Origin: a virus | Strand: one strand, 5' to 3' | Length of the DNA: 39,386 bases | Virus record (IMG/VR): IMGVR_UViG_3300036978_000268 | Coordinates: 1-39,386 of that record | In this document: positions 1 to 39,386 of the stretch, one piece after another | Numbering within the stretch: position 1 is the first letter of the stretch | Layout of the letters: the number at the start of each line of letters is the position of its first letter | The notes under the pieces: generated by a model | Told to the model about the DNA's origin: nothing | Databases searched by the model: none | Seen by the model: the letters and a program-made list of their open reading frames with translations, nothing else | Program-made: the position numbers and the translations under genes

Positions 1-607
1 CAAGTACGCCGATATGGCGGCGGTTATGGATGCCGTGATCGAGCCGTTGACCGCTTGCGGGCTTATCCTCAGGCAACGTACGGTGTTTGATCGGGCGGCG
101 GAAGTCACGGTGCTTGTGACGAGCCTGATCCATGTAGCCTCGGGCGAGTCCGAGACGCAGGAAATACCATTGTTTATCGACGAGAAGCCACAGACATTCG
201 GATCTCGCCTGACTTACTTCAGGCGGTACTCAATCCTGACACTTCTTGGCCTGGCTCCAGAAGACGACGATGGCCTGGCCGCAATGCCACAGGTCGTTGG
301 ACATGACTCGCGATCTGATCGGCGGCAATTGGAATACGATAAGCGCCCGGTTCAAGATCGCAGGCCCGCTCATCAAGAGCAGGATGATGGCGGCGGAGAT
401 ATGGGTGATTGTACCGACTGCGGGGCGCCAAGACGGATGTATAAAAACGGCAAGCCGGGATGTTCCAAGTATTGTTGGAAGGACAGGGCACCAGAACAAT
501 CTCGCCAACCAGCAAGGCGGACACCAGCCGCCAGAGACGACAGAGACGCAAGAGACGATAGAGACGACAGAGACGACAGGTACGATGAAAACGGAACCCC
601 ATTCTGA
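1..607 (+). CDS. erf: ERF-family single-strand annealing protein, C-terminal part
   Basis: The reading frame is already open at base 2 (K-Y-A-D-M...), so the gene starts before the window; the ATG at 14 is internal. KYADMAAVMDAVIEPL followed by LTYFRRYSILTLLGLAPEDDDG is the ERF signature. ERF proteins anneal single-stranded DNA during phage recombination and genome circularisation. The middle has a possible Cys zinc site (CTDCGAPRRMYKNGKPGCSKYC), and the tail is low-complexity repeats of Arg-Asp-Asp ending GTPF, which resembles the acidic tails of single-strand-DNA-binding partners. The missing N-terminus is very probably the partial gene at 39325-39386, which joins in frame across the window ends. 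Family assignment is strong; the Cys-site role is inference. Confidence 0.85.
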   Translation, partial: KYADMAAVMDAVIEPLTACGLILRQRTVFDRAAEVTVLVTSLIHVASGESETQEIPLFIDEKPQTFGSRLTYFRRYSILTLLGLAPEDDDGLAAMPQVVGHDSRSDRRQLEYDKRPVQDRRPAHQEQDDGGGDMGDCTDCGAPRRMYKNGKPGCSKYCWKDRAPEQSRQPARRTPAARDDRDARDDRDDRDDRYDENGTPF

Positions 608-630
608 CCTAAGCACGGAGGAGCAAGAAC

Positions 631-843
631 ATGCTTGTACTGGCACGGAAGACCAATGAGAAAATCGTCATCCACGAAAACGGGCGACTGATCGCAACGA
701 TCAACCTTGTAGACCTGCGGGGCGACAAAGCCCGAATCGGATTTGAAGCCGAATCGTGCATCGCAATTGATCGCGAAGAAGTTTATCTCGCAAAAACCCG
801 AAAGGCCGAAAGCCTTGAACAACCGCAAATCCTTGACCTCTAA
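631..843 (+). CDS. csrA: CsrA/RsmA-family translational regulator
   Basis: This 70-residue protein begins MLVLARKTNEKIVIHENG and continues with LRGDKARIGFEAE and an IDREEVY segment, the conserved beta-strand core of CsrA, a dimer that binds GGA motifs in mRNA leaders and alters translation or stability. GGAGG lies 5' of the ATG. It follows erf by 23 bases and precedes the replication initiator. A perfect hairpin with a GGA at the base of its loop follows immediately (866-889), a plausible binding site. A CsrA on a phage may rewire host carbon and motility control or regulate the phage's own leaders; the target is not shown by sequence. Confidence 0.9.
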   Translation: MLVLARKTNEKIVIHENGRLIATINLVDLRGDKARIGFEAESCIAIDREEVYLAKTRKAESLEQPQILDL

Positions 844-865
844 AGGTCGAAACGAAAAAATTGAA

Positions 866-889
866 CCGCCGGGGAGACAAACCCGGCGG
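866..889 (+). other. hairpin with GGA in loop between csrA and the replication gene
   Basis: CCGCCGGG (866-873) pairs perfectly with CCCGGCGG (882-889) around the loop GAGACAAA. No T run follows, so it is not a standard terminator. The closing G plus the loop form GGA, the core of CsrA sites. It lies in the leader of the next gene, just before the start-site motif GAGAGACAA. CsrA binding is inference. Confidence 0.5.
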
Positions 890-916
890 TCACTTACCAA
901 CGAGAGACAACAACCA

Positions 917-2164
917 ATGGCCTCGATCAAGAAAGTCCGGGAGAGACGAAACAAGATCGGAGAGGCGTCTGACGCTTGCACGCAACATCATCACCATTAT
1001 TGTTGTCCGGTTGACAAGGTAAGTCAAGCGGGCAACCGAAAAGGGGCTGGAATGAAGGATGAGCAGGGGCGATACGTTTCGATACCTATGGACATATTTA
1101 GGAGAGTCGAAAACGTGGTTGACGCCGTAATCTACGGGTACATTGCAGGATGGGAGAATTCCACCAAGCGGGCGAAAGTTGCGTTACATGCGGGCCGGGA
1201 GCGGATCGCAACGGATTTGAAGATCGAAGCCAAAACGGTTACACGATCCTTACAGCGACTCGAAAAGATCGGTTTAGTTGCCTACAAAAGGTATCCGAGA
1301 GGCATCTGGGTCACGACTAGAACCGATGTGATCAGGGCATGGCAACAGGCTAAAGTGATAGGACAAAATGTCCCATCACAAAACGAAGTGATAGGACAAA
1401 ATGTCCTATCTACTAGATCGGACAAAAAGTCCTATCACGATGGACAAAATGTCCCATCTAATAATATAACCCCTCTTCCTTCGGAAGGTATTATAACCCC
1501 GCAAGTAGCCTACGGCGGCGGCGGGCCTGAACCGTTTGAAACCGTCTCAGACGCAATCCTGCCCGCATCAAAGCCAACCATCATCCCCGAATCTCTCAAG
1601 GGGCTCGCCATTCAAGCCGGGCCGATCGCGGAACGCTGGATCTACGCACACATTTCAAGCGGCACCTCGACGGACGATTGGAGGCTATTGGCGGTCCTAA
1701 GGGAAGTGGCGGCGATGGCCAGTACGATTCGCAGCCCGAAGATTCTGGAACTCAAGTTTAACGACCTTCCAGAGGAGAAACCCGCCCCCGCCAAGCCGGA
1801 ACGGATCACGACAAAAGATGGCAAGCGGGTCAAGATCAACGGTGAATGGCTTGACGCCGCAAGACCATATCCAAACCAACCGCCATTGAAACCTTCTGCC
1901 GTTCCGTTAGCGGGCGTGTTCGGCAAGGAGTCGATAGTTCTAACGCCGGAAGACGCCAAATCAAAGAAGGAGGCGGCAGACGTCAAGCAGAAGAAAGTCA
2001 ATGAACAGAACGCCAAACGCGAAGAGGAGCGAACACTCGCTTATCAACTTTCAGAACGACGAAAGAAGCGGACAAACGAATTACTGGCACAAGGCAAATC
2101 CCTGATGATAGCGGCGGACATCTGCCGAACCGAAGGGCTTATGGCGGAGACACTCGACCGATGA
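917..2164 (+). CDS. winged-helix replication initiator (lambda O-like arrangement)
   Basis: About 415 residues. The N-terminal part (from MKDEQGRYVSIPMDIFRRV to about residue 140) looks like a winged helix: ATDLKIEAKTVTRSLQRLEKIGLVAYKRY is a recognition-helix and wing pattern used by phage initiators. A linker then encodes repeated GQNVPS / DKKS motifs that arise from four palindromic DNA repeats in the gene (1355-1458). The C-terminus is a basic, charged coiled region. The start at 917 follows GAGAGACAA, the leader motif seen before many genes here; ATG 1052 behind AAGGGG is a real alternative. An upstream in-frame ATG at 743 overlaps csrA and is unlikely. By analogy with lambda O it would bind the internal iterons and recruit host replication proteins. 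No helicase or polymerase gene is visible in the window. Confidence 0.75.
   Translation: MASIKKVRERRNKIGEASDACTQHHHHYCCPVDKVSQAGNRKGAGMKDEQGRYVSIPMDIFRRVENVVDAVIYGYIAGWENSTKRAKVALHAGRERIATDLKIEAKTVTRSLQRLEKIGLVAYKRYPRGIWVTTRTDVIRAWQQAKVIGQNVPSQNEVIGQNVLSTRSDKKSYHDGQNVPSNNITPLPSEGIITPQVAYGGGGPEPFETVSDAILPASKPTIIPESLKGLAIQAGPIAERWIYAHISSGTSTDDWRLLAVLREVAAMASTIRSPKILELKFNDLPEEKPAPAKPERITTKDGKRVKINGEWLDAARPYPNQPPLKPSAVPLAGVFGKESIVLTPEDAKSKKEAADVKQKKVNEQNAKREEERTLAYQLSERRKKRTNELLAQGKSLMIAADICRTEGLMAETLDR
1355..1458 (+). repeat. four palindromic iterons inside the replication gene
   Basis: Four copies of a palindrome with arms GATAGGACA and TGTCCTATC around AAA. They lie at 1355-1379 (GTGAT-A-GGACA / TGTCC-C-ATCAC), 1388-1410 (perfect 9-base arms), 1416-1438 (one arm changed to AAGTCC) and 1439-1458 (short left arm). 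Spacing is irregular. Iterons inside the initiator gene are the established arrangement of lambdoid origins; binding by this initiator is inference. Confidence 0.8.
1459..1500 (+). other. putative unwinding region of the replication origin
   Basis: Directly after the iterons comes an AT-only stretch (TAATAATATAA), a hairpin CTTCC-TTC-GGAAG (1475-1487) and a second AT tract. The 9-mer TATAACCCC flanks the hairpin as a direct repeat (1465-1473, 1492-1500). Iterons followed by an AT-rich melt site match the layout of lambda ori. The assignment rests on position and composition only. Confidence 0.6.
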
Positions 2165-2556
2165 ATTACCAGACAACAACATGCGGGATGTGTGACGGCA
2201 TTGGCATGATCATCGCTCCACAGATGACAAGATCGCCAGTAGGAGGATCAAGTCGATTGTCAAACCGAGCCTTCCGCTGTTCCTGCTATTCGGGCCAAAG
2301 ATATTTAAGCTCTCAACTGGCAAACGAGGAAGTCGAACGGCACGGGATCGAACAGGTGCAGGAATCAATCTCTAAGACAATCGAATGGTACAGACGCCTT
2401 GGTCTGGACTTCGAAAACGACGACCAAGAGGTTTTACTTGATGCCGCAAGAGCTCATTTTCGTGGATATGCTACCGAAAAATTGTTTCGGAATGTCTCAC
2501 AAAGGGACGACAAGACGGAATGTATTTACGTAGGACCAAAAACAATCCGCCAATAA
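2161..2556 (+). CDS. small putative zinc-binding protein
   Basis: 131 residues, starting in an ATGA overlap with the replication gene, so probably translated with it. The N-terminus has CGMCDGIG and later CSCYSGQ, i.e. CxxC plus CxC spaced as in a DnaJ-type or ribbon zinc site; the GxG after the first pair fits. The rest is helical and charged. Because it is coupled to the initiator it may act in replication, perhaps as a helicase loader or accessory factor, but no family is recognised. Confidence 0.6.
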   Translation: MNYQTTTCGMCDGIGMIIAPQMTRSPVGGSSRLSNRAFRCSCYSGQRYLSSQLANEEVERHGIEQVQESISKTIEWYRRLGLDFENDDQEVLLDAARAHFRGYATEKLFRNVSQRDDKTECIYVGPKTIRQ

Positions 2557-2570
2557 AACGGATTAACTTC

Positions 2571-2599
2571 TTGACCTCAAGACCACAAGGGATTAGTAT
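2571..2599 (+). promoter_or_regulatory. sigma70-like promoter overlapping an AGACC-repeat element
   Basis: TTGACC (2571-2576), a 17-base spacer and TAGTAT (2594-2599). The spacer holds the conserved element CTCAAGACCACAAGGGAT, also present at 37256, 39061 and, in variant form, 32985. It would start transcription about 40 bases before the gene at 2646. The boxes are reasonable but not consensus. Confidence 0.45.
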
Positions 2600-2645
2600 C
2601 CGCGAGCCAACAGCAATAAAACAGCAACAGTGAAGGAGCACTCCA

Positions 2646-2840
2646 GTGGAAGAACGCGACGAGCTTTATGTGGCTTGGGTAGTTGAAACCCGAATGAATG
2701 AATTCGCCGCTCGCGGCGTTACAGCCGACTGGGATTGCGTAAAAATTCAAGCGAGCCGGCAAGTCCTGGCCGCAACTGAGCAGGACAAATGGCCGGGCTT
2801 ATTGCTCTCAGCCGATGCAAATTTGGGAACTGACGAATGA
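2646..2840 (+). CDS. small protein of unknown function (GTG start)
   Basis: 64 residues. The start is GTG, chosen because AAGGAG sits 8 bases upstream. The protein is acidic and Trp-rich (VAWVVETRMNEFAARGV, DWDCVKIQ) with no family recognised. It is first in a run of overlapping genes and ends in an ATGA overlap with the next. Confidence 0.6.
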   Translation: MEERDELYVAWVVETRMNEFAARGVTADWDCVKIQASRQVLAATEQDKWPGLLLSADANLGTDE

Positions 2841-3193
2841 AAACGCCCGCCAAACCAAGGCCATTGACGACAAGGCAAATGCTTTGTGCCAAGATCATCC
2901 TCGATTACCACTCCAATAACGGGTATTGGCCTTTACTTAGCGATGTGGCCGAAGCGATGGGTGGCATTAATCGTTCAGGTGTTGCGGGCCACCTCAAGGC
3001 GTTAAAGACGAAACAGATCTTAGAATCAGTTGCGTCAAGAGCCTTTAAAATACTGCCGCTATGCACAGAAATATTCAGCCCAATGAAAGGCGAAAAGCAT
3101 GTATCAGGTGGGCGACGAAGTCCGGGACAACTCAGTCCCAAACTCAAGCCAAACCGGGCGAATCGTGTCGATAAAAACAAAGCGGGAGAATAA
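2837..3193 (+). CDS. LexA N-terminal-like DNA-binding protein
   Basis: 118 residues. Residues 10-65 (LTTRQMLCAKIILDYHSNNGYWPLLSDVAEAMGGINRSGV... then HLKALKTKQIL) follow the winged-helix pattern of the LexA DNA-binding domain: T-x-R-Q start, GYxP, a recognition helix, then HLxxLxxKxxI. The LexA protease domain is absent; the C-terminus is short and basic. It could be a transcriptional regulator or a replication accessory. It starts in ATGA overlap with the previous gene and its last 95 bases overlap the next gene in another frame, which is unusual but plausible here. Confidence 0.55.
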   Translation: MKTPAKPRPLTTRQMLCAKIILDYHSNNGYWPLLSDVAEAMGGINRSGVAGHLKALKTKQILESVASRAFKILPLCTEIFSPMKGEKHVSGGRRSPGQLSPKLKPNRANRVDKNKAGE

Positions 3194-3329
3194 CAGGACG
3201 AGGCAATTTTTGATTTGGGTCAAATACCCATTTCTGGACGCACATGTCGTTTATAAAGATTATCAAGGATTGATGGTGGTCCGAGAAGCAATCACAACAG
3301 CCAACGGGAGTAATTGGGATGTCGAGTGA
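3099..3329 (+). CDS. small protein of unknown function
   Basis: 76 residues beginning MYQVGDEVRDNSVPNSSQTGRIVSI, which resembles a small SH3-like beta-barrel or tudor-type fold seen in short phage proteins (GDEVR...TGRIVSI...VKYP). It overlaps the 3' end of the preceding gene by 95 bases and the start of the next by 11. No strong ribosome binding site is seen. Function unknown. Confidence 0.5.
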   Translation: MYQVGDEVRDNSVPNSSQTGRIVSIKTKRENNRTRQFLIWVKYPFLDAHVVYKDYQGLMVVREAITTANGSNWDVE

Positions 3330-4284
3330 AACGATGGAAGCAAAAACCGAAATAGTCGCACTGAACGGAATGACTGCGGCGGAGCTATACGGAAGCCAGG
3401 ACAAGATTGACCAGATTCTGGCTCGCATAAGCGAAGAAGCAAAAAAGCTGCCGAAAGATCTCGATCTCTCAGTGGCCAAAAACAGATCGGCAATCGTCTC
3501 GACCGCCTTTAAAGTGGTTCGATCCAAGACATTCCTTGACGACATCGGCAAGACGCTGGTGGCCGATCTCAAGGCTCAGACTGCGGCAATTGATGGCGAA
3601 CGCCGAAGAGTGCGGACAGCCCTTGATACGCTTAGGGATGAAATCCGCCAACCGCTTGAAGCGTGGGAAAAACAGGAAGCAACCCGGCTGGCCGGGCACG
3701 AAACTGCGATTAGGACTATAGCGTCATTCAGGATATTGTTAGGACCAACAGCCGAAGCGATTGAACTGGATCTCGAAAAAGTCGAAAGTATCTTTAAAAA
3801 TCGCGATTGGGAAGAATACGCCCCAAGGGCGGAAAAGGAATACAACGAGTTTAACAAGTTGTGCCGTGCGGAACTGGATAAGATGGCTTTGCAGGCGGAG
3901 CTTAAGGCCGAACGGGCCAAAATGCTCGCCGAAATTGAGGCTGAACGGACCAAGCTCAAAGCTGAACGTGATGAGCTCAACCGGACAAAAGCGGCGATGG
4001 CGGCGGCGAACGCTTCAAGCCTGATAGTTCCAAGCCCGGTAGTTATTGAGCCCGAACCGATACCGGCGATTACTGTCAACAGTAAATCAAAAACCTACAC
4101 GGAACTCAACGAATCAACCTTCCTGCTGATGGCTCATGCTATCAAATCCCTTCTAGTACTATTGGACAAGCACGTTATGCACGAACTGCCGACTGCTGAT
4201 TCGATGATCATTGCCAAGGCAATTGAACTCCGCCAAATCGCATTGGCTGAAGCCAAACGGTCTGGAATCCTAACCGAAGTTTAA
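3319..4284 (+). CDS. coiled-coil phage protein of the recombination region
   Basis: 321 residues, mostly helical. DKIDQILARISEEAKKL, then KNRSAIVSTAFKVVRSKTFLDDIGKTLVADLKAQ and IDGERRRVRTALDTLRDEIRQPLEAWE, match a coiled-coil protein common beside phage annealing or replication genes; its role is not established. A long Glu/Lys/Arg heptad stretch covers about residues 185-230. The C-terminal 70 residues are a separate helical segment. It lies between replication genes and the chain of small genes, so a role in DNA processing is likely but inferred. Confidence 0.65.
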   Translation: MSSETMEAKTEIVALNGMTAAELYGSQDKIDQILARISEEAKKLPKDLDLSVAKNRSAIVSTAFKVVRSKTFLDDIGKTLVADLKAQTAAIDGERRRVRTALDTLRDEIRQPLEAWEKQEATRLAGHETAIRTIASFRILLGPTAEAIELDLEKVESIFKNRDWEEYAPRAEKEYNEFNKLCRAELDKMALQAELKAERAKMLAEIEAERTKLKAERDELNRTKAAMAAANASSLIVPSPVVIEPEPIPAITVNSKSKTYTELNESTFLLMAHAIKSLLVLLDKHVMHELPTADSMIIAKAIELRQIALAEAKRSGILTEV

Positions 4285-4293
4285 GAGGTAAAA

Positions 4294-4617
4294 ATGGAAC
4301 ACAAATCAGTCTCGCAATTATCGTTCAACTCAATCCTGCATAAACTCAGGGTGATCGCCGAAAGGCTTGAATTTAACGACGATGAAGACGAAGAGCCTTA
4401 CGGCAAGCTTATTGATGTGCAAATGGACGAGATCGAAGAGACCGCAAGGAAGCGGATAGACGGAACTTCGGAAGACTTAGAATACGCGAATACGATGAGA
4501 ATAAATGAGGACGCTATGCTGGCTTTGGTCGGATACTATCGAAACAACCAACTCGCAATTAAAGAGATCATGGATGCACGAAAGCGTCTCAATGAGTGGG
4601 GCGAAAGGAATTTGTGA
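4294..4617 (+). CDS. acidic helical protein of unknown function
   Basis: 107 residues behind an AAGAGG site (4284-4289). The composition is acidic in the middle (EFNDDEDEEPYGKL) with helical flanks (HKLRVIAERLEF; AIKEIMDARKRLNEWGERN). No family recognised. It follows the coiled-coil gene by 9 bases and is probably in the same operon. Confidence 0.6.
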   Translation: MEHKSVSQLSFNSILHKLRVIAERLEFNDDEDEEPYGKLIDVQMDEIEETARKRIDGTSEDLEYANTMRINEDAMLALVGYYRNNQLAIKEIMDARKRLNEWGERNL

Positions 4618-4623
4618 GGAAGC

Positions 4624-4752
4624 ATGGCGGGCTCTTTGAACAGTCCACCCGCCAAGCGGAGTCAGCAGAAGGATCTCCAGCCACGGATGGCAGGCTCCAA
4701 GGATAAGCCATGCGAAAACCACAGACAGGCCGATATATTCCGGCTCCAATAG
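4624..4752 (+). CDS. possible 42-residue protein
   Basis: ATG at 4624 has GAGGAAG directly upstream and follows the previous stop by 6 bases, so spacing and ribosome site are good. The product (MAGSLNSPPAKRSQQKDLQ...) is basic and low-complexity, with no recognisable motif, and its 3' part overlaps the gene at 4710 in another frame. It may be a real small gene or only a leader for the next one. Confidence 0.3.
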   Translation: MAGSLNSPPAKRSQQKDLQPRMAGSKDKPCENHRQADIFRLQ

Positions 4753-4997
4753 TTCACCATCCATCCGGGATGAACAGCATCTTCCACGGCAGAGCAATCA
4801 GGGATTTGTCGCCACTTGACCATATCAGCCGTGTCGCAGATAAATGGTTCAATCTGGCGGACAGCGAAATACTCGAAATCGTCAAAATTCAGAGGCAACA
4901 AAAGGACTTAGGAGTCACGCAACATGAAATCGAACAACGTCTACGAGTATCAAAAGGCTTTAAAACAGCGAGTGCGGATGTACGAGGAATTCGTTGA
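4710..4997 (+). CDS. small protein of unknown function
   Basis: 95 residues behind AAGGATAAGCC. The region HISRVADKWFNLADSEILEIVKIQRQQKDLGVTQHEIEQRL has the look of a folded helical protein and argues this frame is real; the tail overlaps the next gene by 74 bases. ATG 4770 is an alternative start. No family recognised. Confidence 0.5.
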   Translation: MRKPQTGRYIPAPIVHHPSGMNSIFHGRAIRDLSPLDHISRVADKWFNLADSEILEIVKIQRQQKDLGVTQHEIEQRLRVSKGFKTASADVRGIR

Positions 4998-5268
4998 AAA
5001 ACGTGGGAAGATACCGACAGATAAACAGATCTGTGTTATGCCAACCCCACCCGACGATTTAGTCAACGCATTCAAACAGGGCACGCTCATTTATGGCACA
5101 CTGAAATGTCAGCACCAAATCACGGAGATGTACGCTGTCCATGCTCGCAGAATCAAGCAGGAAAAGACCAAAGAGCGATTGAGGGATCATGAACGCTCTA
5201 TGCGTCTGGCCTCATTCGCAACCAACGCATCAAACAGCACGCACGAACTCAAAATCAAGGGACGATAA
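4924..5268 (+). CDS. basic helical protein of unknown function
   Basis: 114 residues with TTAGGAG upstream of the ATG. Very charged and helical: YEYQKALKQRVRMYEEFVEKRGKIP at the N-terminus and RIKQEKTKERLRDHERSMRL near the C-terminus. Pro-rich middle (MPTPPDDLV). No family recognised. The TAA stop is followed at once by the next ATG. Confidence 0.6.
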   Translation: MKSNNVYEYQKALKQRVRMYEEFVEKRGKIPTDKQICVMPTPPDDLVNAFKQGTLIYGTLKCQHQITEMYAVHARRIKQEKTKERLRDHERSMRLASFATNASNSTHELKIKGR

Positions 5269-5562
5269 ATGATACCGCAATTGCCGCCTGAATTCCTACG
5301 GTTCGATTCAATCACAGAAGCCCACAAGACAGGCAACATCGAAGATCTAACCAACGCCGTCAAAGCCAATCAGGCGAACCACAAAAGCCTGATAAGGGGA
5401 CTGGATGAACAGCGGGCAAGATACTGGCCGGAATACAGCGCCATGAACGATTACCTTTGGGCTCTTGAAGCGGCAACCGGGCCGGAACCAGTCGCGGACA
5501 TCTACGAGGCAAGAGCGGCCATTCTAAGTTACTATAACGCCAAGATATCGGAACAACCATGA
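5269..5562 (+). CDS. small protein of unknown function
   Basis: 97 residues; the ATG abuts the preceding stop codon with no gap, and the TGA stop overlaps the next ATG. Trp/Tyr-rich segment RARYWPEYSAMNDYLWALEAATG suggests a folded helical bundle. Function unknown. Confidence 0.6.
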   Translation: MIPQLPPEFLRFDSITEAHKTGNIEDLTNAVKANQANHKSLIRGLDEQRARYWPEYSAMNDYLWALEAATGPEPVADIYEARAAILSYYNAKISEQP

Positions 5563-5780
5563 ATCATTGGCTCCTAACCAACACAAAGCAATGGGCCACA
5601 ATTCTCGGTCCAGATGCAGAACACGGCAATTTTGAAGCGATGCTTGGAACAATTAGTAAAGACAAAAACGCACCCGGATTTATCTTGATGTCCGAATGGC
5701 ATACGGCGACAAGATTCAAAACATTCGAAGAAGCCAAACAGCATTGCGAGAACCGTATTAACCAAGAGGATCAAGAATGA
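5559..5780 (+). CDS. small protein of unknown function
   Basis: 73 residues with ATGA overlaps at both ends. NHWLLTNTKQWATILG... FILMSEWHTATRFKTFEEAKQHCE reads as a small alpha/beta fold; the ending FEEAKQHCE is the usual last helix of short phage proteins that present a Trp-containing sheet. Function unknown. Confidence 0.6.
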   Translation: MNHWLLTNTKQWATILGPDAEHGNFEAMLGTISKDKNAPGFILMSEWHTATRFKTFEEAKQHCENRINQEDQE

Positions 5781-5995
5781 ACGGACACTATTTAGAACTT
5801 GCAGAATACCTAACGGGCGACGACTTAGTAGCCTTTGCGCTGGACGAGTTACACCAAACCAGCGGCGGGCATCGGGGCCTAAAACGGTCCGACATCTGGA
5901 AAGAAACGGTCTTAAAAGCAGCCGCATGGAGGAGAGACGCAAGCTCTAAAGATGACCAGATTGGAACCCGAAAGCCAAGCCGGGGGGCCAAATGA
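5777..5995 (+). CDS. small protein of unknown function
   Basis: 72 residues, ATGA overlaps on both sides. It starts as an amphipathic helical segment (YLELAEYLTGDDLVAFALDELHQ) and ends in a basic tail (GTRKPSRGAK). No family recognised. Confidence 0.55.
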   Translation: MNGHYLELAEYLTGDDLVAFALDELHQTSGGHRGLKRSDIWKETVLKAAAWRRDASSKDDQIGTRKPSRGAK

Positions 5996-6894: not shown

Positions 6895-6928
6895 TGTACT
6901 AACAAGGTAACACCTGAGAGGATACCAC

Positions 6929-32975: not shown

Positions 32976-32984
32976 GTTATCTCC

Positions 32985-33149: not shown

Positions 33150-33178
33150 TTGACTCCTAGACGTCTAGGGTATATAGT
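33150..33178 (+). promoter_or_regulatory. promoter with operator CTAGACGTCTAG in its spacer
   Basis: TTGACT (33150-33155), 17-base spacer with the perfect palindrome CTAGACGTCTAG (33157-33168), TATAGT (33173-33178). A near-identical promoter and leader recur at 35246 and 38187. Binding of a repressor between the boxes would block polymerase. Confidence 0.8.
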
Positions 33179-33229
33179 ATTGATGTAGGGAAGAGACAAC
33201 GGAAACAACGAAACGAAAGAGACAAGACA
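33179..33229 (+). promoter_or_regulatory. conserved purine-rich leader
   Basis: From GTAGGGAAGA to AAAGAGACAAGACA, ending right at ATG 33230. The same leader occurs at 35275-35329 and 38216-38266. T-poor and unlikely to fold; contains GGA triplets (GGGAAG, CGGAAAC) of the kind CsrA binds. GAGACAAGAC replaces a classical AGGAGG. Confidence 0.55.
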
Positions 33230-33418
33230 ATGAAGATTATGAACCACGCTGAATATCGAAAACAAATGACAACGCTCTCGAACGAAGTACTTCGCTTCAT
33301 CATGGCGGATGCCTATAACGCCGCACAAGCCATGCCTGAAAGCCCGAATGCTGGATACTATCTGGACGAACTGAATTACGCTTCTATGGAATTGGCAAGA
33401 CGCCATCGTTGCAATTGA
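33230..33418 (+). CDS. small protein in cassette 1, before a ribozyme
   Basis: 62 residues. MKIMNHAEYRKQMTTLSNEVLRFIMADAYNAAQAMPES and YYLDELNYASMELARR are helical and charged. The leader is conserved with the cassettes at 35330 and 38267, though the proteins share no obvious sequence. A hammerhead ribozyme starts 3 bases after the stop. Function unknown. Confidence 0.65.
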   Translation: MKIMNHAEYRKQMTTLSNEVLRFIMADAYNAAQAMPESPNAGYYLDELNYASMELARRHRCN

Positions 33419-33420
33419 CT

Positions 33421-33472
33421 AAGCCGAAACGCCGAAAGGCGTCTGCCGATCTAAGCGGCACTGACGAGGCTT
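33421..33472 (+). ncRNA. hammerhead ribozyme 1 (type II)
   Basis: Order: AAGCC (33421, stem II) - GAAA - CGCC-GAAA-GGCG (stem III with GAAA loop) - UC with cleavage after C33443 - UGCCG/CGGCA (stem I) - CUGACGA - GGCUU (stem II). Core residues CUGANGA and GAAA and the cleavage triplet GUC are all present. Stem II is the open one, so it is type II. It lies between two small genes and would cut their shared mRNA. Confidence 0.9.
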
Positions 33473-33491
33473 TAACATAGGAGACAGACAA

Positions 33492-33773
33492 ATGGCTCAG
33501 TACAAAACACCCATGGACCGCGACCAAGTTTTCGAGTCGGCCATGCGATCTTTCAAGGCTTTTCTGAACGATCAGATTGGACTGAACGATCAGGCTTTAA
33601 CCCCCTACAACGAGCTAGACGACGAGATGCTCGGCATGTATAACGATCTTACGGAGAACGATGGACTAGGCCACAGGGAAGCCATGAAGCAGGTTAAAGA
33701 GTCGTTCTACGAATCACTCGAAGAGATTTTGAGCGATGGCCTTGACGACATCTTTAATGGCATCGGACAATAA
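33492..33773 (+). CDS. small acidic protein after ribozyme 1
   Basis: 93 residues behind TAGGAGACAGACAA. Helical and acidic (DDEMLGMYNDLTEND, KESFYESLEEILSDGLDDIF). Cleavage by the ribozyme would leave it on a downstream mRNA piece with a 5' hydroxyl. No family recognised. Confidence 0.65.
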   Translation: MAQYKTPMDRDQVFESAMRSFKAFLNDQIGLNDQALTPYNELDDEMLGMYNDLTENDGLGHREAMKQVKESFYESLEEILSDGLDDIFNGIGQ

Positions 33774-33785
33774 CTATCGCACCGG

Positions 33786-33810
33786 CCCCTCTACAGAGGG
33801 GCAAGTTTTT
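33786..33810 (+). terminator. terminator of cassette 1
   Basis: CCCCTC (33786-33791) pairs with GAGGGG (33796-33801) around TACA, then CAAGTTTTT. Good intrinsic terminator. Confidence 0.7.
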
Positions 33811-33842
33811 AAGTTTGATCCACCACCTAACAGGAGTCAGTA

Positions 33843-34112
33843 ATGAAGTATCCAATAGTGTCGGACGTCTTGACGATGGATGAAGTTTTTGAGGCTGTCG
33901 CCAAGGCCCACCCCGAAGCGGTCTATCGGGTCGAGACGCTGGAAGATCAGGAGGACGGGACGAAGGCTTGGCAAAACATAGAGTGCGCCAAGGTGATAAT
34001 CATGACTGGCGGAAAGGCTTTGTATGTCGATGACGCAAACGGCTACGACCTTTTAGACGACCTTGAGACTCTCGATCACCCAACCGTCCGGCTAGTTTGG
34101 GATAACAGCTAA
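33843..34112 (+). CDS. small protein of unknown function
   Basis: 89 residues behind AACAGGAG. MKYPIVSDVLTMDEVFEAVAKAHPEAVYRVETLED then a beta segment (AKVIIMTGGKALYVDDANG). Acidic. No family recognised; no promoter is visible in the 32-base gap after the terminator, so it may rely on read-through. Confidence 0.65.
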   Translation: MKYPIVSDVLTMDEVFEAVAKAHPEAVYRVETLEDQEDGTKAWQNIECAKVIIMTGGKALYVDDANGYDLLDDLETLDHPTVRLVWDNS

Positions 34113-34153
34113 CCTCTTTTTCGAGTTCGAATAATACATTAACAGGAGTTCGA

Positions 34154-34324
34154 ATGACACCGCTTGACGATCCGGCCAAACCACTGACAGAGTGTTTCCA
34201 ATGCGAGCGGAAATCCGACTTTATCTGCGCTGATTGCGCCGTTTGTCTGCTGTGTTGCAATTGTGACGACACCGCCGAATACGACGACGAAGAAGAGGAA
34301 GACGACGATGACGACACCGCTTGA
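34154..34324 (+). CDS. short Cys-rich protein with acidic tail
   Basis: 56 residues. CFQCERKSDFICADCAVCLLCCNC is a dense set of Cys pairs suited to two zinc sites, followed by an acidic tail (DDTAEYDDEEEEDDDDDTA). The same module, with DDPAKPLT upstream of it, is inside the protein at 34555, so one was copied from the other. Ribosome site ACAGGAG. Confidence 0.65.
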   Translation: MTPLDDPAKPLTECFQCERKSDFICADCAVCLLCCNCDDTAEYDDEEEEDDDDDTA

Positions 34325-34568
34325 ACAAGTAGAAACACAGATTATCGAGCTTGAGGCTAAAATTGCCGAACTTGAGGCTGAACTAGAGAACAGGCCGGTC
34401 GTATGGGCGATCCAGCACATCGAGACCAAAACGCTGTCGAACAGAGGGTACTCGGTGGACCTCTACGCATCAGTGGAGGCCGCCGAAAGTGCTATTCGAA
34501 CAGAATTTGAACCGTCCGAGTATCAGACGATCGTTTACACGGAGAGGCATCTTGATGACACCGCTTGA
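34308..34568 (+). CDS. small coiled-coil protein between the two Cys-rich genes
   Basis: 86 residues from ATG 34308 (an earlier in-frame start at 34263 is inside the preceding gene). N-terminus is a short coiled coil (LEQVETQIIELEAKIAELEAELEN), then a beta domain (VVWAIQHIETKTLSNRGYSVDLY, AAESAIRTEFEPSEYQTIVYTERH). It overlaps its neighbours at both ends through the same ACACCGCTTGA block. Confidence 0.6.
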   Translation: MTTPLEQVETQIIELEAKIAELEAELENRPVVWAIQHIETKTLSNRGYSVDLYASVEAAESAIRTEFEPSEYQTIVYTERHLDDTA

Positions 34569-35139
34569 ATTTATCGCATCACTAGAGCACGGCGAGGCCA
34601 AGGCTGCGGCGTTGACCATTTACAACCTGATGTCGCCAAAGTGGATTGAGAACACCGACGATCCGGCCAAACCACTGACTGCAGAGTGCTTGCAGTGCGA
34701 AAATCAAACAAAACATCTTTGCCTTTATTGCGATGTTTGTTTGCTGTGTTGCGATTGCGATGACGACGAAGAAGAAGAGGAAGACGAGGACGAAGAAGAG
34801 CAACGACCAACCGAAAGAAACGAGATAATGAAGATTACGAGCCGCAACGATAAGCCAAGGATTGATCCTGAGGTTCTAGCAGAAAACAAAGCGTGGCGGT
34901 CTAATGTGTTCGATACCCCCTTTAATCGGCAAGACGCAGCGAAGCAGCTTCTCGACCTAAGAAGTCGTGGCACCGAGGGAAGATATTACGCTTCACACAT
35001 TCGTCGCATGGCCCAATTAGGACCAGGCATGTGGCACGCATCGCCTGGCGTACGCGCTTCAAGGATGGCCTTCGCAATCACCGAACAGATTACGCCAACA
35101 CTACTCGCCAGATTGCCGCAACCCGTTACTGCACCCTGA
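34555..35139 (+). CDS. Cys-rich protein with acidic linker and C-terminal helical domain
   Basis: 194 residues from ATG 34555 with GGAGAGG upstream. Residues 36-70 repeat the Cys module of the gene at 34154 (DDPAKPLTAECLQCE, CLYCDVCLLCCDC). An acidic run (DDDEEEEEDEDEEE) links to a C-terminal domain (NRQDAAKQLLDLRSRGTEGRYYASHIRRMAQLGP). A zinc-binding adaptor is likely. No family recognised. Confidence 0.6.
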   Translation: MTPLEFIASLEHGEAKAAALTIYNLMSPKWIENTDDPAKPLTAECLQCENQTKHLCLYCDVCLLCCDCDDDEEEEEDEDEEEQRPTERNEIMKITSRNDKPRIDPEVLAENKAWRSNVFDTPFNRQDAAKQLLDLRSRGTEGRYYASHIRRMAQLGPGMWHASPGVRASRMAFAITEQITPTLLARLPQPVTAP

Positions 35140-35154
35140 ACACCTTAATCTCCA

Positions 35155-35194
35155 AAGCCTGTTCGCCATTTCCTGTGGCAACAGGCTTGTTTTA
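35155..35194 (+). terminator. strong two-part terminator
   Basis: AAGCCTGTT (35155-35163) pairs with AACAGGCTT (35180-35188); an inner GCCA/TGGC stem extends it with a one-base bulge. GTTTTAT follows. Ends the Cys-rich group before cassette 2. Confidence 0.75.
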
Positions 35195-35245
35195 TAGTGT
35201 TTGATGTACGCTCGAAAAACTTTTCAAAAAACTTTGGAATACACC

Positions 35246-35274
35246 TTGACTACTAGACCTCTAGGGTATATAGT
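35246..35274 (+). promoter_or_regulatory. promoter of cassette 2 with operator CTAGACCTCTAG
   Basis: TTGACT (35246-35251), 17-base spacer, TATAGT (35269-35274). The operator palindrome lies at 35253-35264. Upstream A/T tracts (TTTTCAAAAAACTT) match those before 38187 and may be an UP element. Leader 35275-35329 is the conserved one. Confidence 0.8.
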
Positions 35275-35329
35275 CTTGGTGTAGGGAAGAGAAGCGAAAC
35301 GAAACCGACAAACGAAAGAGACAAGACCG

Positions 35330-35551
35330 ATGACAAGCTTGACACTTTACTTTAGTGACCGCCCTTACGTCTCGAGCCACCTCAAAGCACCAAAGGGATT
35401 TGGCGTATGGGCATTCAGCGAAGACCAACGGGGCAACGACATGATCTTCACGCCATACGCCATGACGCTGACAAACGCCAAGAAATGGCTCAAAACCAAA
35501 CTGAAGACCGAAGGCGTCACGGGAATTTACACGGTTTATATCCTATCCTGA
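35330..35551 (+). CDS. small protein in cassette 2
   Basis: 73 residues behind AAAGAGACAAGACCG. SLTLYFSDRPYVSSHLKAPKGFGVWAFSEDQRGND... and AKKWLKTKLKTEGVTGIYTVYIL read as a small alpha/beta protein. Widespread-phage-like in style but not recognised. Followed by a hairpin terminator. Confidence 0.65.
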   Translation: MTSLTLYFSDRPYVSSHLKAPKGFGVWAFSEDQRGNDMIFTPYAMTLTNAKKWLKTKLKTEGVTGIYTVYILS

Positions 35552-35557
35552 CCGACC

Positions 35558-35573
35558 GGGGCCTTCGGGCCCC
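35558..35573 (+). terminator. TTCG-loop hairpin
   Basis: GGGGCC-TTCG-GGCCCC. The same hairpin recurs at 37236 and 39041, each shortly after a small gene. Only a mild T tract follows (TGCTTTGG), so some transcription may pass to the gene at 35594. Confidence 0.55.
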
Positions 35574-35593
35574 ACTGCTTTGGAGAGAGACGA

Positions 35594-35893
35594 ATGCTAA
35601 TTGCGAAGACAATCCTCGAACAACTTGGCGGATCAAAATTCATTGCGATGACTGGAGCTAAATCCTTTATCACTGATGGCAACGGCTTGCAGTTCAAACT
35701 GCCTTCACGGTTCGCACGGGGCGGCACCAACTTTGTCCGGATTACGCTTGAACCTTCGGATTTATACAAGATGGAATTCTTCCTTTACCGGAAGAATCGG
35801 GACTTGGAGATGGTAGATGTCATGACTGGCGTTTATTGCGACCAGCTTCAAACGATATTCACCGGAGCAACCGGGCTTGACGTTAGCCTTTGA
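35594..35893 (+). CDS. widespread phage protein of unknown function
   Basis: 99 residues behind GGAGAGAGACGA. LEQLGGSKFIAMTGAKSFITDGNGLQFKLPSRFARGG...VRITLEPSDLYKMEFF is a pattern I recognise from many phages and prophages; the role is unknown. Hammerhead 2 starts 2 bases after the stop, so the stop codon sits at the ribozyme edge. Confidence 0.7.
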   Translation: MLIAKTILEQLGGSKFIAMTGAKSFITDGNGLQFKLPSRFARGGTNFVRITLEPSDLYKMEFFLYRKNRDLEMVDVMTGVYCDQLQTIFTGATGLDVSL

Positions 35894-35894
35894 C

Positions 35895-35946
35895 AAGCCG
35901 AAACGCCGAAAGGCGTCTGGCGGTTATACCGCCACTGATGAGGCTT
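35895..35946 (+). ncRNA. hammerhead ribozyme 2 (type II)
   Basis: AAGCC - GAAA - CGCC-GAAA-GGCG - UC, cleavage after C35917 - UGGCGGU/ACCGCCA (7-pair stem I) - CUGAUGA - GGCUU. All core bases match the hammerhead consensus and stem I is covariant with ribozymes 1 and 3. Separates the genes at 35594 and 35971. Confidence 0.92.
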
Positions 35947-35970
35947 TAAACACGTCTGGAGAGACAACAG

Positions 35971-36447
35971 ATGGATTACGAGAAGATTGCCGAAGATCAC
36001 CGGGCATACGCGAAAGAATGCGACCAGCGGGCCGCAGAGAGCTTTGAACGGTGCGACACAGACGGATTTCTGACCCAATGGGCAACCGGGCTGACGGCTG
36101 AACTTAATCGCACACGGGCTGATATTGCGGACAAGAAAGGGTGCTGGACGTTTTGCGGATTGTACAAGGGCGGCACCCGGATTAAAGCCAAGATCGTCAA
36201 GACAGCATACGGGCGGACATGGCTTATTCACGACGATCATTTTGACCTGGTCAACAACAGGCGGTTTATCCCTCTTGCAATGGGAGGCACCAGCCGCATT
36301 CAGGTTGGACTCGGGCTGACCGAGCGTTTTGAACTGGCACCCGCCTTCGCGATGATTACAGGCGAAGGGTACGGGCTATCCGGGACCGCATGGGTCGAGG
36401 TCATTCGATCAGGCGACAAATGGGGCCTTGATTCAATTCCAGCGTAA
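35971..36447 (+). CDS. phage protein family of unknown function, after ribozyme 2
   Basis: 158 residues behind GGAGAGACAACAG. AAESFERCDTDGFLTQWATGLTAELNRTRADIADKKGCWTFCGLYKGGTRIKAK and GLSGTAWVEVIRSGDKWGLDS match a family often next to the family of the 35594 gene in phage genomes. The conserved pairing, here split by a ribozyme, suggests a shared job. Role not known. Confidence 0.7.
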   Translation: MDYEKIAEDHRAYAKECDQRAAESFERCDTDGFLTQWATGLTAELNRTRADIADKKGCWTFCGLYKGGTRIKAKIVKTAYGRTWLIHDDHFDLVNNRRFIPLAMGGTSRIQVGLGLTERFELAPAFAMITGEGYGLSGTAWVEVIRSGDKWGLDSIPA

Positions 36448-36475
36448 AGCCTCACACCATGCCAAGGAGGGCACT

Positions 36476-36805
36476 ATGTGGAGCATACGGATATCGGCGT
36501 TTGGACTATCAGTAACTTTCAAGCGGGGCCTACGAGCCTCAAAGGATAAGGCTAAAAATGGGAGTGGCGAAACGAGTAGGATACAACCCCGACAAAGTGC
36601 GGATCGGGCTCCAGATGATACTCGACGGGAGTCTGGATCAAAAGCAAATCGTCAATGCCGTCCGGGCGGCAATTCACTTTGTCGATGCCGAAGGCCGGGC
36701 GGTAGAACTGGCAACGGGCGACTCCAATCAAGCCCGGAAGGCCTTGGCGTTAAACCGGGGGGACGCCTTATGGCATTCCCGGAAGCCCGAATACTGGTAC
36801 GATGA
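36476..36805 (+). CDS. possible overlapping small gene with strong ribosome site
   Basis: ATG 36476 follows AAGGAGGGCACT, the best Shine-Dalgarno of the region. Product begins MWSIRISAFGLSVTFKRGLRASKDKAKNG, then reads through the frame of the gene at 36558 and turns Arg/Pro-rich, unlike a real domain. Either the strong site serves a short peptide or the frame is a chance opening. Confidence 0.3.
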   Translation: MWSIRISAFGLSVTFKRGLRASKDKAKNGSGETSRIQPRQSADRAPDDTRRESGSKANRQCRPGGNSLCRCRRPGGRTGNGRLQSSPEGLGVKPGGRLMAFPEARILVR

Positions 36806-36887
36806 AGTCCGGGCTGAACGGCGGGCGCTAAATGACGGCGACGAGGCACTTTACACCCCGCAAAAAAATGTTTTTGCGAAGCCTTGA
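36558..36887 (+). CDS. protein of unknown function
   Basis: 109 residues behind AAAGGATAAGGC. VGYNPDKVRIGLQMILDGSLDQKQIVNAVRAAIHFVDAEGRAVEL and ALNRGDALWHSRKPEYWYDEVRAERRALNDG are helical and well formed. The stop overlaps the -35 box of the next promoter. No family recognised. Confidence 0.6.
   Translation: MGVAKRVGYNPDKVRIGLQMILDGSLDQKQIVNAVRAAIHFVDAEGRAVELATGDSNQARKALALNRGDALWHSRKPEYWYDEVRAERRALNDGDEALYTPQKNVFAKP
36859..36878 (+). other. hairpin inside the end of the 36558 gene
   Basis: CGCAAAAA (36859-36866) pairs with TTTTTGCG (36871-36878) around AATG. Followed by AAGCC, so not a terminator by the usual rule. Confidence 0.35.
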
Positions 36888-36912
36888 AATTAGACGCCTA
36901 GAAGGCTAGAAT
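36884..36912 (+). promoter_or_regulatory. promoter with operator TTAGACGCCTAG in its spacer
   Basis: TTGAAA (36884-36889), 17-base spacer with TTAGACGCCTAG (36890-36901), TAGAAT (36907-36912). The operator is identical to that at 6872. TSS would fall near 36919, at the start of a hairpin. Confidence 0.7.
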
Positions 36913-36919
36913 ACTAAAG

Positions 36920-36937
36920 GCGGGAGAGACACCCCGC
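36920..36937 (+). other. GGA-loop hairpin at the 5' end of the transcript
   Basis: GCGGG (36920-36924) pairs with CCCGC (36933-36937) around AGAGACAC. Like the hairpin at 866 it presents GGGA-GA at the loop, a candidate CsrA site, at the predicted start of the mRNA. Confidence 0.4.
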
Positions 36938-36959
36938 AACATCTTCACGGGAGCCAAAA

Positions 36960-37229
36960 ATGCAGTACTCAGAATTAGATCTTGTCCGAATGACGCCCCG
37001 CAATCGCGGGGATGTCCTGACCCAACTTCAACGCCAAATCGACTCTTATATTGAACTCGATTGGTTGACAGACGATGAGGCCGAACATTGTTTATATATC
37101 GAACGGCTCGTCCAATTGCTCTGGGCATTGCCCACGCAAATATCTGAGACGTCACCTGTCGGGTATTACGATGGGCGGACGTACCAGTATATCGTTGTCG
37201 CGGAATCACGGGATAAGGCTTTCGCCTGA
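36960..37229 (+). CDS. small protein of unknown function
   Basis: 89 residues behind CGGGAGCC. MTPRNRGDVLTQLQRQIDSYIELDWLTDDEAEHCLYIERLVQLLWAL is helical with a C-terminal strand (YDGRTYQYIVVAES). No family recognised. TTCG-loop hairpin follows. Confidence 0.65.
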   Translation: MQYSELDLVRMTPRNRGDVLTQLQRQIDSYIELDWLTDDEAEHCLYIERLVQLLWALPTQISETSPVGYYDGRTYQYIVVAESRDKAFA

Positions 37230-37235
37230 CCGACT

Positions 37236-37255
37236 GGGGCCTTCGGGCCCCGGAA
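37236..37255 (+). terminator. TTCG-loop terminator
   Basis: GGGGCC-TTCG-GGCCCC (37236-37251) then GGAATTTAG. Same hairpin as 35558 and 39041. Immediately followed by the AGACC-repeat element. Confidence 0.6.
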
Positions 37256-37280
37256 TTTAGACCTCAAGACCACAAGGGAT
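37256..37280 (+). repeat. AGACC-repeat element before ATG
   Basis: Begins TTTAGACC and holds the tandem units AGACCTCA-AGACCACA followed by AGGGAT, 5 bases before ATG 37286. A copy with the same bases lies at 39061-39085. The AGGGA also serves as ribosome site. A variant operator or conserved leader. Confidence 0.6.
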
Positions 37281-37285
37281 TAAGC

Positions 37286-37531
37286 ATGAAACATTTCGCC
37301 TACAGAACTAAGGGTGCAGGGCCAACTGACACTATGGGAGCCCGAATTAAAGTCCGCCAAATGGGGCTCAAACGGCTCACTACGGTTCCTTACGACTATG
37401 CCATAAACGTATGTCAAAACCATGTCCAAGCGGCAATCAAGGCGCACCGCAGAGTGGAAGAGGAAGACCTTGAAATCCTCGAAACAAGGGATATGCAAAT
37501 GGGCTATCTGATAATAGGAGTGGTGCGATGA
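37286..37531 (+). CDS. small protein of unknown function
   Basis: 81 residues. YRTKGAGPTDTMGARIKVRQMGLKRLTTVPYDYAINVCQNHVQAAIKAH and DLEILETRDMQMGYLIIGVV read as a small alpha/beta protein. ATGA overlap to the next gene. Confidence 0.6.
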   Translation: MKHFAYRTKGAGPTDTMGARIKVRQMGLKRLTTVPYDYAINVCQNHVQAAIKAHRRVEEEDLEILETRDMQMGYLIIGVVR

Positions 37532-37899
37532 AATTTCGGAGGATCACACCAGCAAGCGGACAGCAAGCTCTACCACTCCCACGCCGAAAGCGTGGGGGAC
37601 ATGCCAATATTCAGCGAATTGCAGAACAGACCGAGGAAATCGTCTGGCACGCTCATGCGATGATTAAGCACCATGGAAGGGTCAGTGTTGGTGGATTATG
37701 CCAAACTTGGCACATTACGCCGGGAGGAGCAAGTTATCAGCGACTTCGAGATCTACTCCTGTCAGCAGGCTTTACGCTTGCACAACTCGGAATCGAAGAG
37801 AGGGCTCCAGAAGCCACCCAGACCAAGCCAATTCCAACAGGACCAAAGCCTGAACCTGTCGGGGCTGACACCTGTTTTGTCTGCTACGCAGGAGGCTGA
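37528..37899 (+). CDS. protein of unknown function with C-terminal CxxC
   Basis: 123 residues, ATGA overlap with the previous gene. Basic N-terminus; helical middle (IQRIAEQTEEIVWHAHAMIKHHGRVSVGGLCQTWHI and SYQRLRDLLLSAGFTL) with winged-helix character; Pro-rich linker; C-terminal CFVC. The gene contains a 9-pair hairpin (37576-37598, CGAAA loop). Confidence 0.6.
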   Translation: MKFRRITPASGQQALPLPRRKRGGHANIQRIAEQTEEIVWHAHAMIKHHGRVSVGGLCQTWHITPGGASYQRLRDLLLSAGFTLAQLGIEERAPEATQTKPIPTGPKPEPVGADTCFVCYAGG

Positions 37900-37924
37900 C
37901 GAATTGATTGACGGAGCAAGCTCG

Positions 37925-38197
37925 ATGCACGAAACCGCTTACCAACTGATTGTGGAGATTGAGGGCGGGAAGTGCTTGCGCGAACTCGGAATCTATCTGT
38001 CAGTCGAAGATGTCCGGCGGGCCATGAATGCCATCGTGGCGGATCGGCCAAAAGATGTTGTCGCGATCGGCGTCAGGACGGTACGGGTGCTTTATTGGGG
38101 CAAGCCTGATAAACCCTACAAGTTCAGGGTCGAACCGATCACGCCACCACGCCGAAAAATAATTTTCAAAAAACTTCGGAATTCCCTTGACGTCTAG
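37925..38197 (+). CDS. small protein of unknown function ending in the next promoter
   Basis: About 90 residues from ATG 37925; TTG 37904 behind AGGAGG is an in-frame alternative. The longer frame back to 37673 overlaps the previous gene and is unlikely. YQLIVEIEGGKCLRELGIYLSVEDVRRAMNAIVADRPKDVVAIGVRTVRVLYW is a clear helical/beta domain. The last codons (LRNSLDV) lie inside the promoter at 38187. Confidence 0.6.
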   Translation: MHETAYQLIVEIEGGKCLRELGIYLSVEDVRRAMNAIVADRPKDVVAIGVRTVRVLYWGKPDKPYKFRVEPITPPRRKIIFKKLRNSLDV

Positions 38198-38215
38198 ACG
38201 TCTAGGGAATATAGT
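38187..38215 (+). promoter_or_regulatory. promoter of cassette 3 with operator CTAGACGTCTAG
   Basis: TTGACG (38187-38192), 17-base spacer, TATAGT (38210-38215). The perfect operator at 38194-38205 overlaps a second palindrome GTCTAGAC. Upstream TTTTCAAAAAACTT equals that of cassette 2. Leader 38216-38266 is the conserved one. Confidence 0.8.
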
Positions 38216-38266
38216 CTTGGTGTAGGGAAGACGCAACGGAAACAACCGAACGAAAGAGACAAGACG

Positions 38267-38653
38267 ATGACCGTAGCAACCAAATCAGTCGTTTCAACCG
38301 AAATGGCGATGGAATTGATTCTAAAACTCACCCTCAAGCGTAACATGCGGGTGTCAGTTTGCAACGGCGAAGCCATGGTGCTAACAAAGTCAACGGATCT
38401 CGAAGCCATCAAAGCGGCTATGTATTCGACCGACAGCGAAACGCTTACCTTTTGGGATAACGAAGGCTTCGGTTCGGCTTCCGTCCAGCAAGGCTATTTG
38501 AACCTTGTTCACGACGAAGCTAACGTAGGGCTGGATTGCGTCTCGACGGCATACGGGAAGCCAATAGAGGACGCCTACGACCGGATACTGGAAGTCGTTA
38601 AGAGAATTGACGAATTATGCGATTTTCAGATTTGGCTATTCAGCCGGAACTAA
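38267..38653 (+). CDS. protein in cassette 3, before ribozyme 3
   Basis: 128 residues behind AAAGAGACAAGACG. SVVSTEMAMELILKLTLKRNMRVSVCNGEAMVLTKSTDLEAIKAAMYS and DETLTFWDNEG-like strands suggest an alpha/beta fold. The TAA stop overlaps the first bases of ribozyme 3. No family recognised. Confidence 0.65.
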   Translation: MTVATKSVVSTEMAMELILKLTLKRNMRVSVCNGEAMVLTKSTDLEAIKAAMYSTDSETLTFWDNEGFGSASVQQGYLNLVHDEANVGLDCVSTAYGKPIEDAYDRILEVVKRIDELCDFQIWLFSRN

Positions 38654-38703
38654 GCCGAAACGCCGAAAGGCGTCTGGCGGTTTTACCGCCACTGATGAGG
38701 CTT
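38652..38703 (+). ncRNA. hammerhead ribozyme 3 (type II)
   Basis: AAGCC - GAAA - CGCC-GAAA-GGCG - UC, cleavage after C38674 - UGGCGG-UUUU-ACCGCCA (stem I) - CUGAUGA - GGCUU. All conserved core bases present; stem I loop differs from ribozyme 2. Separates the genes at 38267 and 38731. Confidence 0.92.
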
Positions 38704-38730
38704 TAAACAACCAACGAAAGAGAGAGACAA

Positions 38731-39030
38731 ATGAACTCAGTAACGACCAAGCCGATGAGCAACAAACAACGCTCCAAGGATGCACAAGAGACCGATGCGT
38801 TTGATCGGAAGATGAAAGACAGCAGATTCTGGAGCGACGAGTGGTATTACGCTCGGTGTCGTTTCAATTACGGCCAAGCGATGACGTGCTTGAATTTAGC
38901 TTGTGAAAGTAGGAACCCAACCTTTGCTCGGGTCTGGATTATGCGATTTACAAATGATCGGAAAAGCTACATTCAGGCGGTCAAAAACCTCAAGGAACAT
39001 CCAAAAAAGATCATGCCACTTCCAAACTGA
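38731..39030 (+). CDS. small basic protein after ribozyme 3
   Basis: 99 residues behind GAAAGAGAGAGACAA. TKPMSNKQRSKDAQETDAFDRKMKDSRFWSDEWYYARCRFNYGQAMTCLNL and RFTNDRKSYIQAVKNLKEHPKKIMPL. Aromatic-rich, helical. No family recognised. Confidence 0.6.
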   Translation: MNSVTTKPMSNKQRSKDAQETDAFDRKMKDSRFWSDEWYYARCRFNYGQAMTCLNLACESRNPTFARVWIMRFTNDRKSYIQAVKNLKEHPKKIMPLPN

Positions 39031-39038
39031 CTGACCGA

Positions 39039-39063
39039 CCGGGGCCTTCGGGCCCCGGAATTT
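39039..39063 (+). terminator. TTCG-loop terminator
   Basis: CCGGGGCC-TTCG-GGCCCCGG (39039-39058) followed by AATTT. Longest of the three such hairpins. Confidence 0.7.
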
Positions 39064-39085
39064 AGACCTCAAGACCACAAGGGAT
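39061..39085 (+). repeat. AGACC-repeat element before ATG
   Basis: Same bases as the element at 37256-37280, here 5 bases before ATG 39091. AGGGAT is the ribosome site. Confidence 0.6.
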
Positions 39086-39090
39086 CAAAC

Positions 39091-39300
39091 ATGGCGGCGA
39101 AAATAACGACAGCGGCGACAATCAAAGAACAGACAGGAGTAGCTATGGACGTTCCAAAGGACTTGTACAAACGGTTTAAAATTCATTCCGCAACATACGG
39201 AATCAGCTTGCAAGCACTTATGGTGCGGGCAATTTGCGACGAGATTGGTGTCAATGCGGCTCCATATCTCAAAGGGCGGCGGCTCGGGAACAAGAAGTAA
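39091..39300 (+). CDS. ribbon-helix-helix-like DNA-binding protein, candidate regulator
   Basis: 69 residues. TGVAMDVPKDLYKRFKIHSATYGISLQALMVRAICDEIG has the strand-helix-helix pattern of MetJ/Arc-type regulators (strand VAMDVP, helix KDLYKRFKIHSATYG, then SLQALMVRAI). Flanked by the repeated AGACC element, which such dimers could bind as half-sites, suggesting self-control. Identity of the target is inference. Confidence 0.6.
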   Translation: MAAKITTAATIKEQTGVAMDVPKDLYKRFKIHSATYGISLQALMVRAICDEIGVNAAPYLKGRRLGNKK

Positions 39301-39324
39301 TTCACCAACGAGAGAGACAAGACA

Positions 39325-39386
39325 ATGAAGAATCTGAACGAAGCACTGCTCTGTTTTCAAGGCAAATCGGTATCAGTCCACAAAAA
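39325..39386 (+). CDS. erf: ERF-family annealing protein, N-terminal part
   Basis: ATG 39325 follows CGAGAGAGACAAGACA, the standard leader here. The 20 residues MKNLNEALLCFQGKSVSVHK look like the ERF N-terminus (A-L-x-x-F-Q-x-x). The final two bases AA plus base 1 (C) make Asn, and base 2 onward continues K-Y-A-D-M of the first gene, so both belong to one gene across the window ends. Confidence 0.75.
   Translation, partial: MKNLNEALLCFQGKSVSVHK

Follow-up and report, generated by a model that had tools for sequence, protein, structure and literature searches.

The window analysed here, the whole of IMG/VR record IMGVR_UViG_3300036978_000268 (39,386 bp), in our assessment very probably represents a single, nearly complete unit of a temperate siphophage whose map is circular, linearised at an arbitrary point inside the erf gene with the loss of about 18 bp, which would give a true unit of about 39,404 bp. 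A first-pass annotation had proposed that the phage genome is circular, complete and exactly 39,386 bp long, with ends that join directly and in frame. An essentially complete genome with a circular map is upheld by synteny over the join and by related contigs that close on themselves, but the ends are not contiguous, and the exact length and direct join are contradicted by the roughly 18 missing base pairs.

A recombination gene split by the contig ends

The 5′ end of erf, truncated by the contig end, runs on the + strand from an ATG at 39325 to the last base at 39386, comprising 20 codons and a remainder of two bases (AA), and reads MKNLNEALLCFQGKSVSVHK. The 3′ part occupies positions 1–607 on the same strand, the frame from base 2 staying open until a stop at 607. 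The sequence at the contig end is ...CACAAAAA and that at the contig start is CAAGTACGCC. Direct joining of the two ends gives one ORF of 222 codons (222 aa), the product of which matches the Pfam ERF family (PF04404) at 52.6 bits, against a cut-off of 25, and also matches PHROG families of Erf-like annealing proteins. Taken alone, the open frame across the join is weak evidence, because 9% of random joins here are open for at least 201 codons in a genome that is gene-dense and coded on one strand. The real weight for adjacency of the window ends lies in homology, which at the sequence level provides strong evidence. In a scan of IMG/VR, three close relatives had a whole, uninterrupted erf (L007, L008 and L009, with ERF identities of 93%, 92% and 75%, respectively), bearing out the initial proposal that the last gene and the first frame are halves of one ERF gene.

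These relatives also measure the distance between the ends. The contigs carrying L007 and L008 (G001 and G002) are colinear in DNA with both the end and the start of the window, at 81–90% identity over kilobases on both sides; the order is window 37540–39386 then 1–16866 in G001, and 33149–39386 then 1–13494 in G002. All three erf genes have exactly 18 extra bases at the join, where the relatives read ...CAYAAGAA[CGCNAAGGCGGAYMGNTA]CAAGTAY... (L008 has T in place of the C that follows the bracket). In G001, the anchors stop at 15689 and resume at 15670, with exactly 18 bp between them (15671–15688), and the same 18 bp occur in the contig of L009 (G003), whose ERF protein is 75% identical. Given these further bases, base 1 of the window, a C, does not complete an Asn codon as had been supposed but stands third in a Tyr codon (TAC in L007 and L009; Tyr27 in the relatives' numbering), with about 18 bp absent before it. 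The join appears in frame since the 18 bases make up whole codons, and the apparent Asn is coincidental.

The same gap is visible in the protein, which reads HKN-AKADRY-KYAD in the relatives and HKN-KYAD in the joined window. Across 72 related ERF proteins from IMG/VR, the number of residues between the conserved K-N/D and the next Tyr is 7 in 47 proteins, 9 in 24 and 15 in one, so that all 72 have at least 7 residues in this N-terminal motif; the joined window has 1. The joined ERF is thus not of the expected size, and the comparison with the N-termini of relatives that had been suggested as a check comes out divided: the N-terminus itself agrees, but six residues are missing at the join. On this comparison, we read the short linker as missing sequence; if the phage has the standard linker, the unit genome would probably measure about 39,404 bp (39,386 + 18).

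Taken at face value, the open frame over the join and the ERF score of the joined protein would fit a genome of exactly 39,386 bp in which the ends join directly and the in-frame deletion of six ERF residues is real. None of the 72 ERF relatives has such a gap, however, their minimum being 7 residues against 1, and the deletion would need to fall at precisely the base where the contig breaks. The joined protein also scores lower as ERF than L007 does (52.6 versus 59.1 bits, the latter with 118 aa), with an alignment that starts only at residue 19. We give this explanation a very slim chance. The 18-bp gap would instead be an assembly gap rather than a deletion: judged by alignment with the relatives, the window ends are adjacent on the map yet not contiguous, with about 18 bp of erf absent between them. 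IMG/VR holds no bridging contig of the same strain (exact end pattern with 0–30 unknown bases between), and cultured phages include no DNA relatives of the window's 3′ end.

Circular map, gene content and packaging

Related contigs close on themselves. The ends of G008 (IMGVR_UViG_3300035680_000045, 34,823 bp) overlap exactly over 127 bp, those of G003 (IMGVR_UViG_3300027969_000220, 37,180 bp) over 144 bp at 99% and those of G011 (35,428 bp) over 176 bp at 97%, and the unit length of related end-overlapping contigs is 34.7–37.0 kb. The order csrA–TerL–portal–MuF–protease–MCP–tail is common to G008, G011 and the window, and the map breakpoints differ, lying in the head–tail connector genes in G011, between the tail-fibre-like gene and the capsid region in G008 and in erf in the window. 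G008 is therefore like the window in gene order, and G003 is like it in the erf–csrA neighbourhood, but these two contigs close by overlaps of 127 bp and 144 bp, respectively, whereas about 18 bp are lacking between the ends of the window. At the sensitivity used, their integrases show no relation to that of the window.

The window ends carry no terminal repeat, direct or inverted, and hence no direct terminal repeat of at least 20 bp, the usual criterion described in the CheckV paper, according to which end repeats often result from assembling circular or concatemeric genomes (PMC8116208). By that criterion the window would not count as complete, though it is nearly complete. De Bruijn assemblers generally break contigs at multi-path positions, and within-population variation was among the causes simulated in the COBRA paper (PMC10914622); the 97–99% overlaps of G003 and G011 suggest that variation of this kind exists among related phages. 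The stretch of 30.6–33.1 kb around the integrase is uncovered by any close relative, and continuity there is read from the contig alone.

Since no overlap closes the contig, and since an HNH endonuclease elsewhere in the window indicates that mobile genes occur, the window might also be a fragment of a longer genome, or its erf might be split by an inserted element such as an intron or transposon, with more than 18 bp between the ends. The close relatives have no insert at the erf join, however; a simple insertion would spare the erf flanks any loss, and contig ends would normally enter the insert. The window length also falls within the range of the end-overlapping relatives (units of 34.7–37.0 kb), with all modules present. 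We see only a slim chance for a fragment or an insertion, and prefer a nearly complete circular unit that lacks about 18 bp.

The + strand carries every convincing gene except one. Beside erf lies the gene for a CsrA-like regulator (631–843, +; PF02599, 47 bits), which has the same neighbour in the circular relative G003 and a homologue in most related contigs; a LexA-like winged-helix protein and a RuvC-like or DUF1064-like nuclease were also identified. A cluster of ParB-like, PAPS-reductase-like and ParB-like genes (6929–10090, +) stands upstream of the terminase large subunit gene (10477–11817, +). The genes for the portal, a MuF-like head morphogenesis protein and the head maturation protease follow (11845–15249, +), in the same order as in G008, G009 and G011, and then those for the major capsid protein, head–tail adaptor, neck and tail proteins (20477–30562, +). 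Further genes identified encode a tail-fibre-like protein and a papain-like cysteine protease; searches for relatives of the tail protein returned none in bacterial genome contigs (prophage search) and none in cultured phages. With head, tail, packaging, recombination and integration modules present and attP intact, the full gene content of a temperate siphophage, as first annotated, is well supported.

Two further features were observed along this map. The papain-family (C1) cysteine protease gene sits just before the capsid gene (19486–20397, +) and its product is about 48% identical in G013, G018 and G021; it possibly has a role in head maturation or lysis. Near the start of the window, a 25-nt hairpin repeat, GATAGGACAAAATGTCC, occurs in four near-tandem copies (1353–1458, +) inside ORF 743–2164 (917–2161), whose product weakly matches replication initiation proteins, and the repeats are possible origin iterons.

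The terminase large subunit is 43% identical to that of Methanobacterium phage psiM2, and by terminase the closest isolated phages are psiM2 and psiM100 (42–43% over 90% of the protein). Unlike the window, these phages have archaeal hosts and lengths of 26–31 kb, and the comparison with them covers the terminase. Virions of psiM1 have a circular redundancy of about 3 kb (PMC3820453). Because of the terminase identity to psiM2 and the circular redundancy of psiM1 virions, headful (pac) packaging is the best guess, and the virion DNA is probably circularly permuted. In the cell, the phage DNA would circularise, as the intact attP and the integrase suggest.

Under a third explanation, that of a cos or defined-end phage, the contig ends would be the physical ends of virion DNA, and a 3′ overhang lost in library preparation could conceivably account for a short loss of sequence. 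The contigs of relatives nevertheless pass straight through the erf site and break elsewhere, and psiM2 has the most similar terminase. To our knowledge, known cos sites do not resemble this place, which is within a conserved coding gene and at a distance from the terminase. We grant physical ends scarcely any probability and retain the circular map with an arbitrary break in erf.

Integrase, attP and candidate hammerhead cassettes

The tyrosine integrase ORF (31166–32665, +; 499 aa; PF00589, 69.5 bits) has relatives in IMG/VR that are only 28–29% identical, and its catalytic Tyr378 is followed by a 121-aa tail. In frame inside this ORF, after the Tyr378 codon, lies a 46-bp attP core (32435–32480, +) identical to the 3′ part of tRNA-Pro(GGG), from the anticodon stem-loop to the 3′ end. 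All 46 bp are identical in Candidatus Kuenenia (L143) and in another bacterium (L144), and 44 bp are identical in the tRNA-Pro(GGG) of Ornatilinea apprima (L141). No tRNA genes were found within the window, and ARAGORN misses the attP fragment. As phage DNA flanks the attP core on both sides, the contig represents the unintegrated form. From these sequence features, namely an integrase domain and an attP that matches a bacterial tRNA gene, we infer that the phage is temperate.

Several other elements surround this site. A direct repeat, TTGACAASCTATGGTACAASSACCTC, flanks the attP core near 32355 and 32578 and may correspond to integrase arm sites. The HNH endonuclease gene (32625–32996, −; PF13392, 44 bits), the sole convincing minus-strand gene, overlaps the end of the integrase ORF. 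Near the integrase in several related contigs there are tRNA-like fragments. Two bacterial tRNA-Pro(GGG) copies, L140 in Ornatilinea apprima and L142 in a Pelolinea MAG, are not called as tRNAs and resemble displaced 3′ fragments. Together with L141, these displaced fragments suggest that in Anaerolineae other mobile elements have integrated at this tRNA gene, and they are a possible hint of the phage's host range.

Three type II hammerhead ribozyme candidates of the form GAAAC...GUC...CUGANGA are present on the + strand, at 33421–33478, 35895–35952 and 38652–38709, each immediately following a stop codon and lying about 13–22 nt ahead of the next start. Over seven copies from the window, G001, G002 and G003, the hammerhead pairs are kept at 98%, with compensatory changes in stems I and III. 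The candidates score 24 bits against a cut-off of 37 for Rfam RF02276; an Rfam scan of the whole window left them unlisted at the E-value limit used, and scans of short stretches listed them. An 86-nt promoter-like repeat with TTGAC...TATAGT and a CTAGACGTCTAG-type palindrome occurs in three copies (33148–33233, 35244–35329 and 38185–38270, +), every one of which opens a unit consisting of promoter, gene or genes, and hammerhead. Multiple hammerheads in prophages are known (PMC3088659). In the same region, a terminator-like repeat, GACCGGGGCCTTCGGGCCCCGG, is found in near-identical copies at 37226–37288 and 39031–39093 (+), with a partial copy at 35548–35573; behind it, a leader common to the copies precedes the next gene.

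Significance

If the contig were taken to be closed at 39,386 bp, the genome length would be wrong and a recombination protein would acquire a false six-residue deletion. Contig ends that join in frame are weak evidence by themselves; an alignment of relatives over the join supports the adjacency of the ends and also shows how many bases are missing. With the genome nearly complete, the integrase and attP arrangement and the ribozyme cassettes can also be read. As a finding, the genome closure is ordinary; the attP inside int and the three candidate hammerheads in their cassettes are of greater interest, although precedents for them have been published (PMC6070905; PMC3088659). The unusual part is the integration site, not the closure.

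The attP of Myxococcus phage Mx8 is located in int, the 3′ end of which is replaced on integration, swapping the C-terminus of the integrase (PMC6070905). In the window, too, attP is inside the integrase coding sequence, the likeness being one of arrangement; the attP core of the window is the 3′ half of tRNA-Pro(GGG). Integration into tRNA-Pro(GGG) would swap about the last 60 integrase residues for host-encoded ones and thereby switch activity, a proposal that we regard as evenly poised and that would place an Mx8-like switch in another lineage, beside three promoter–gene–hammerhead cassettes.
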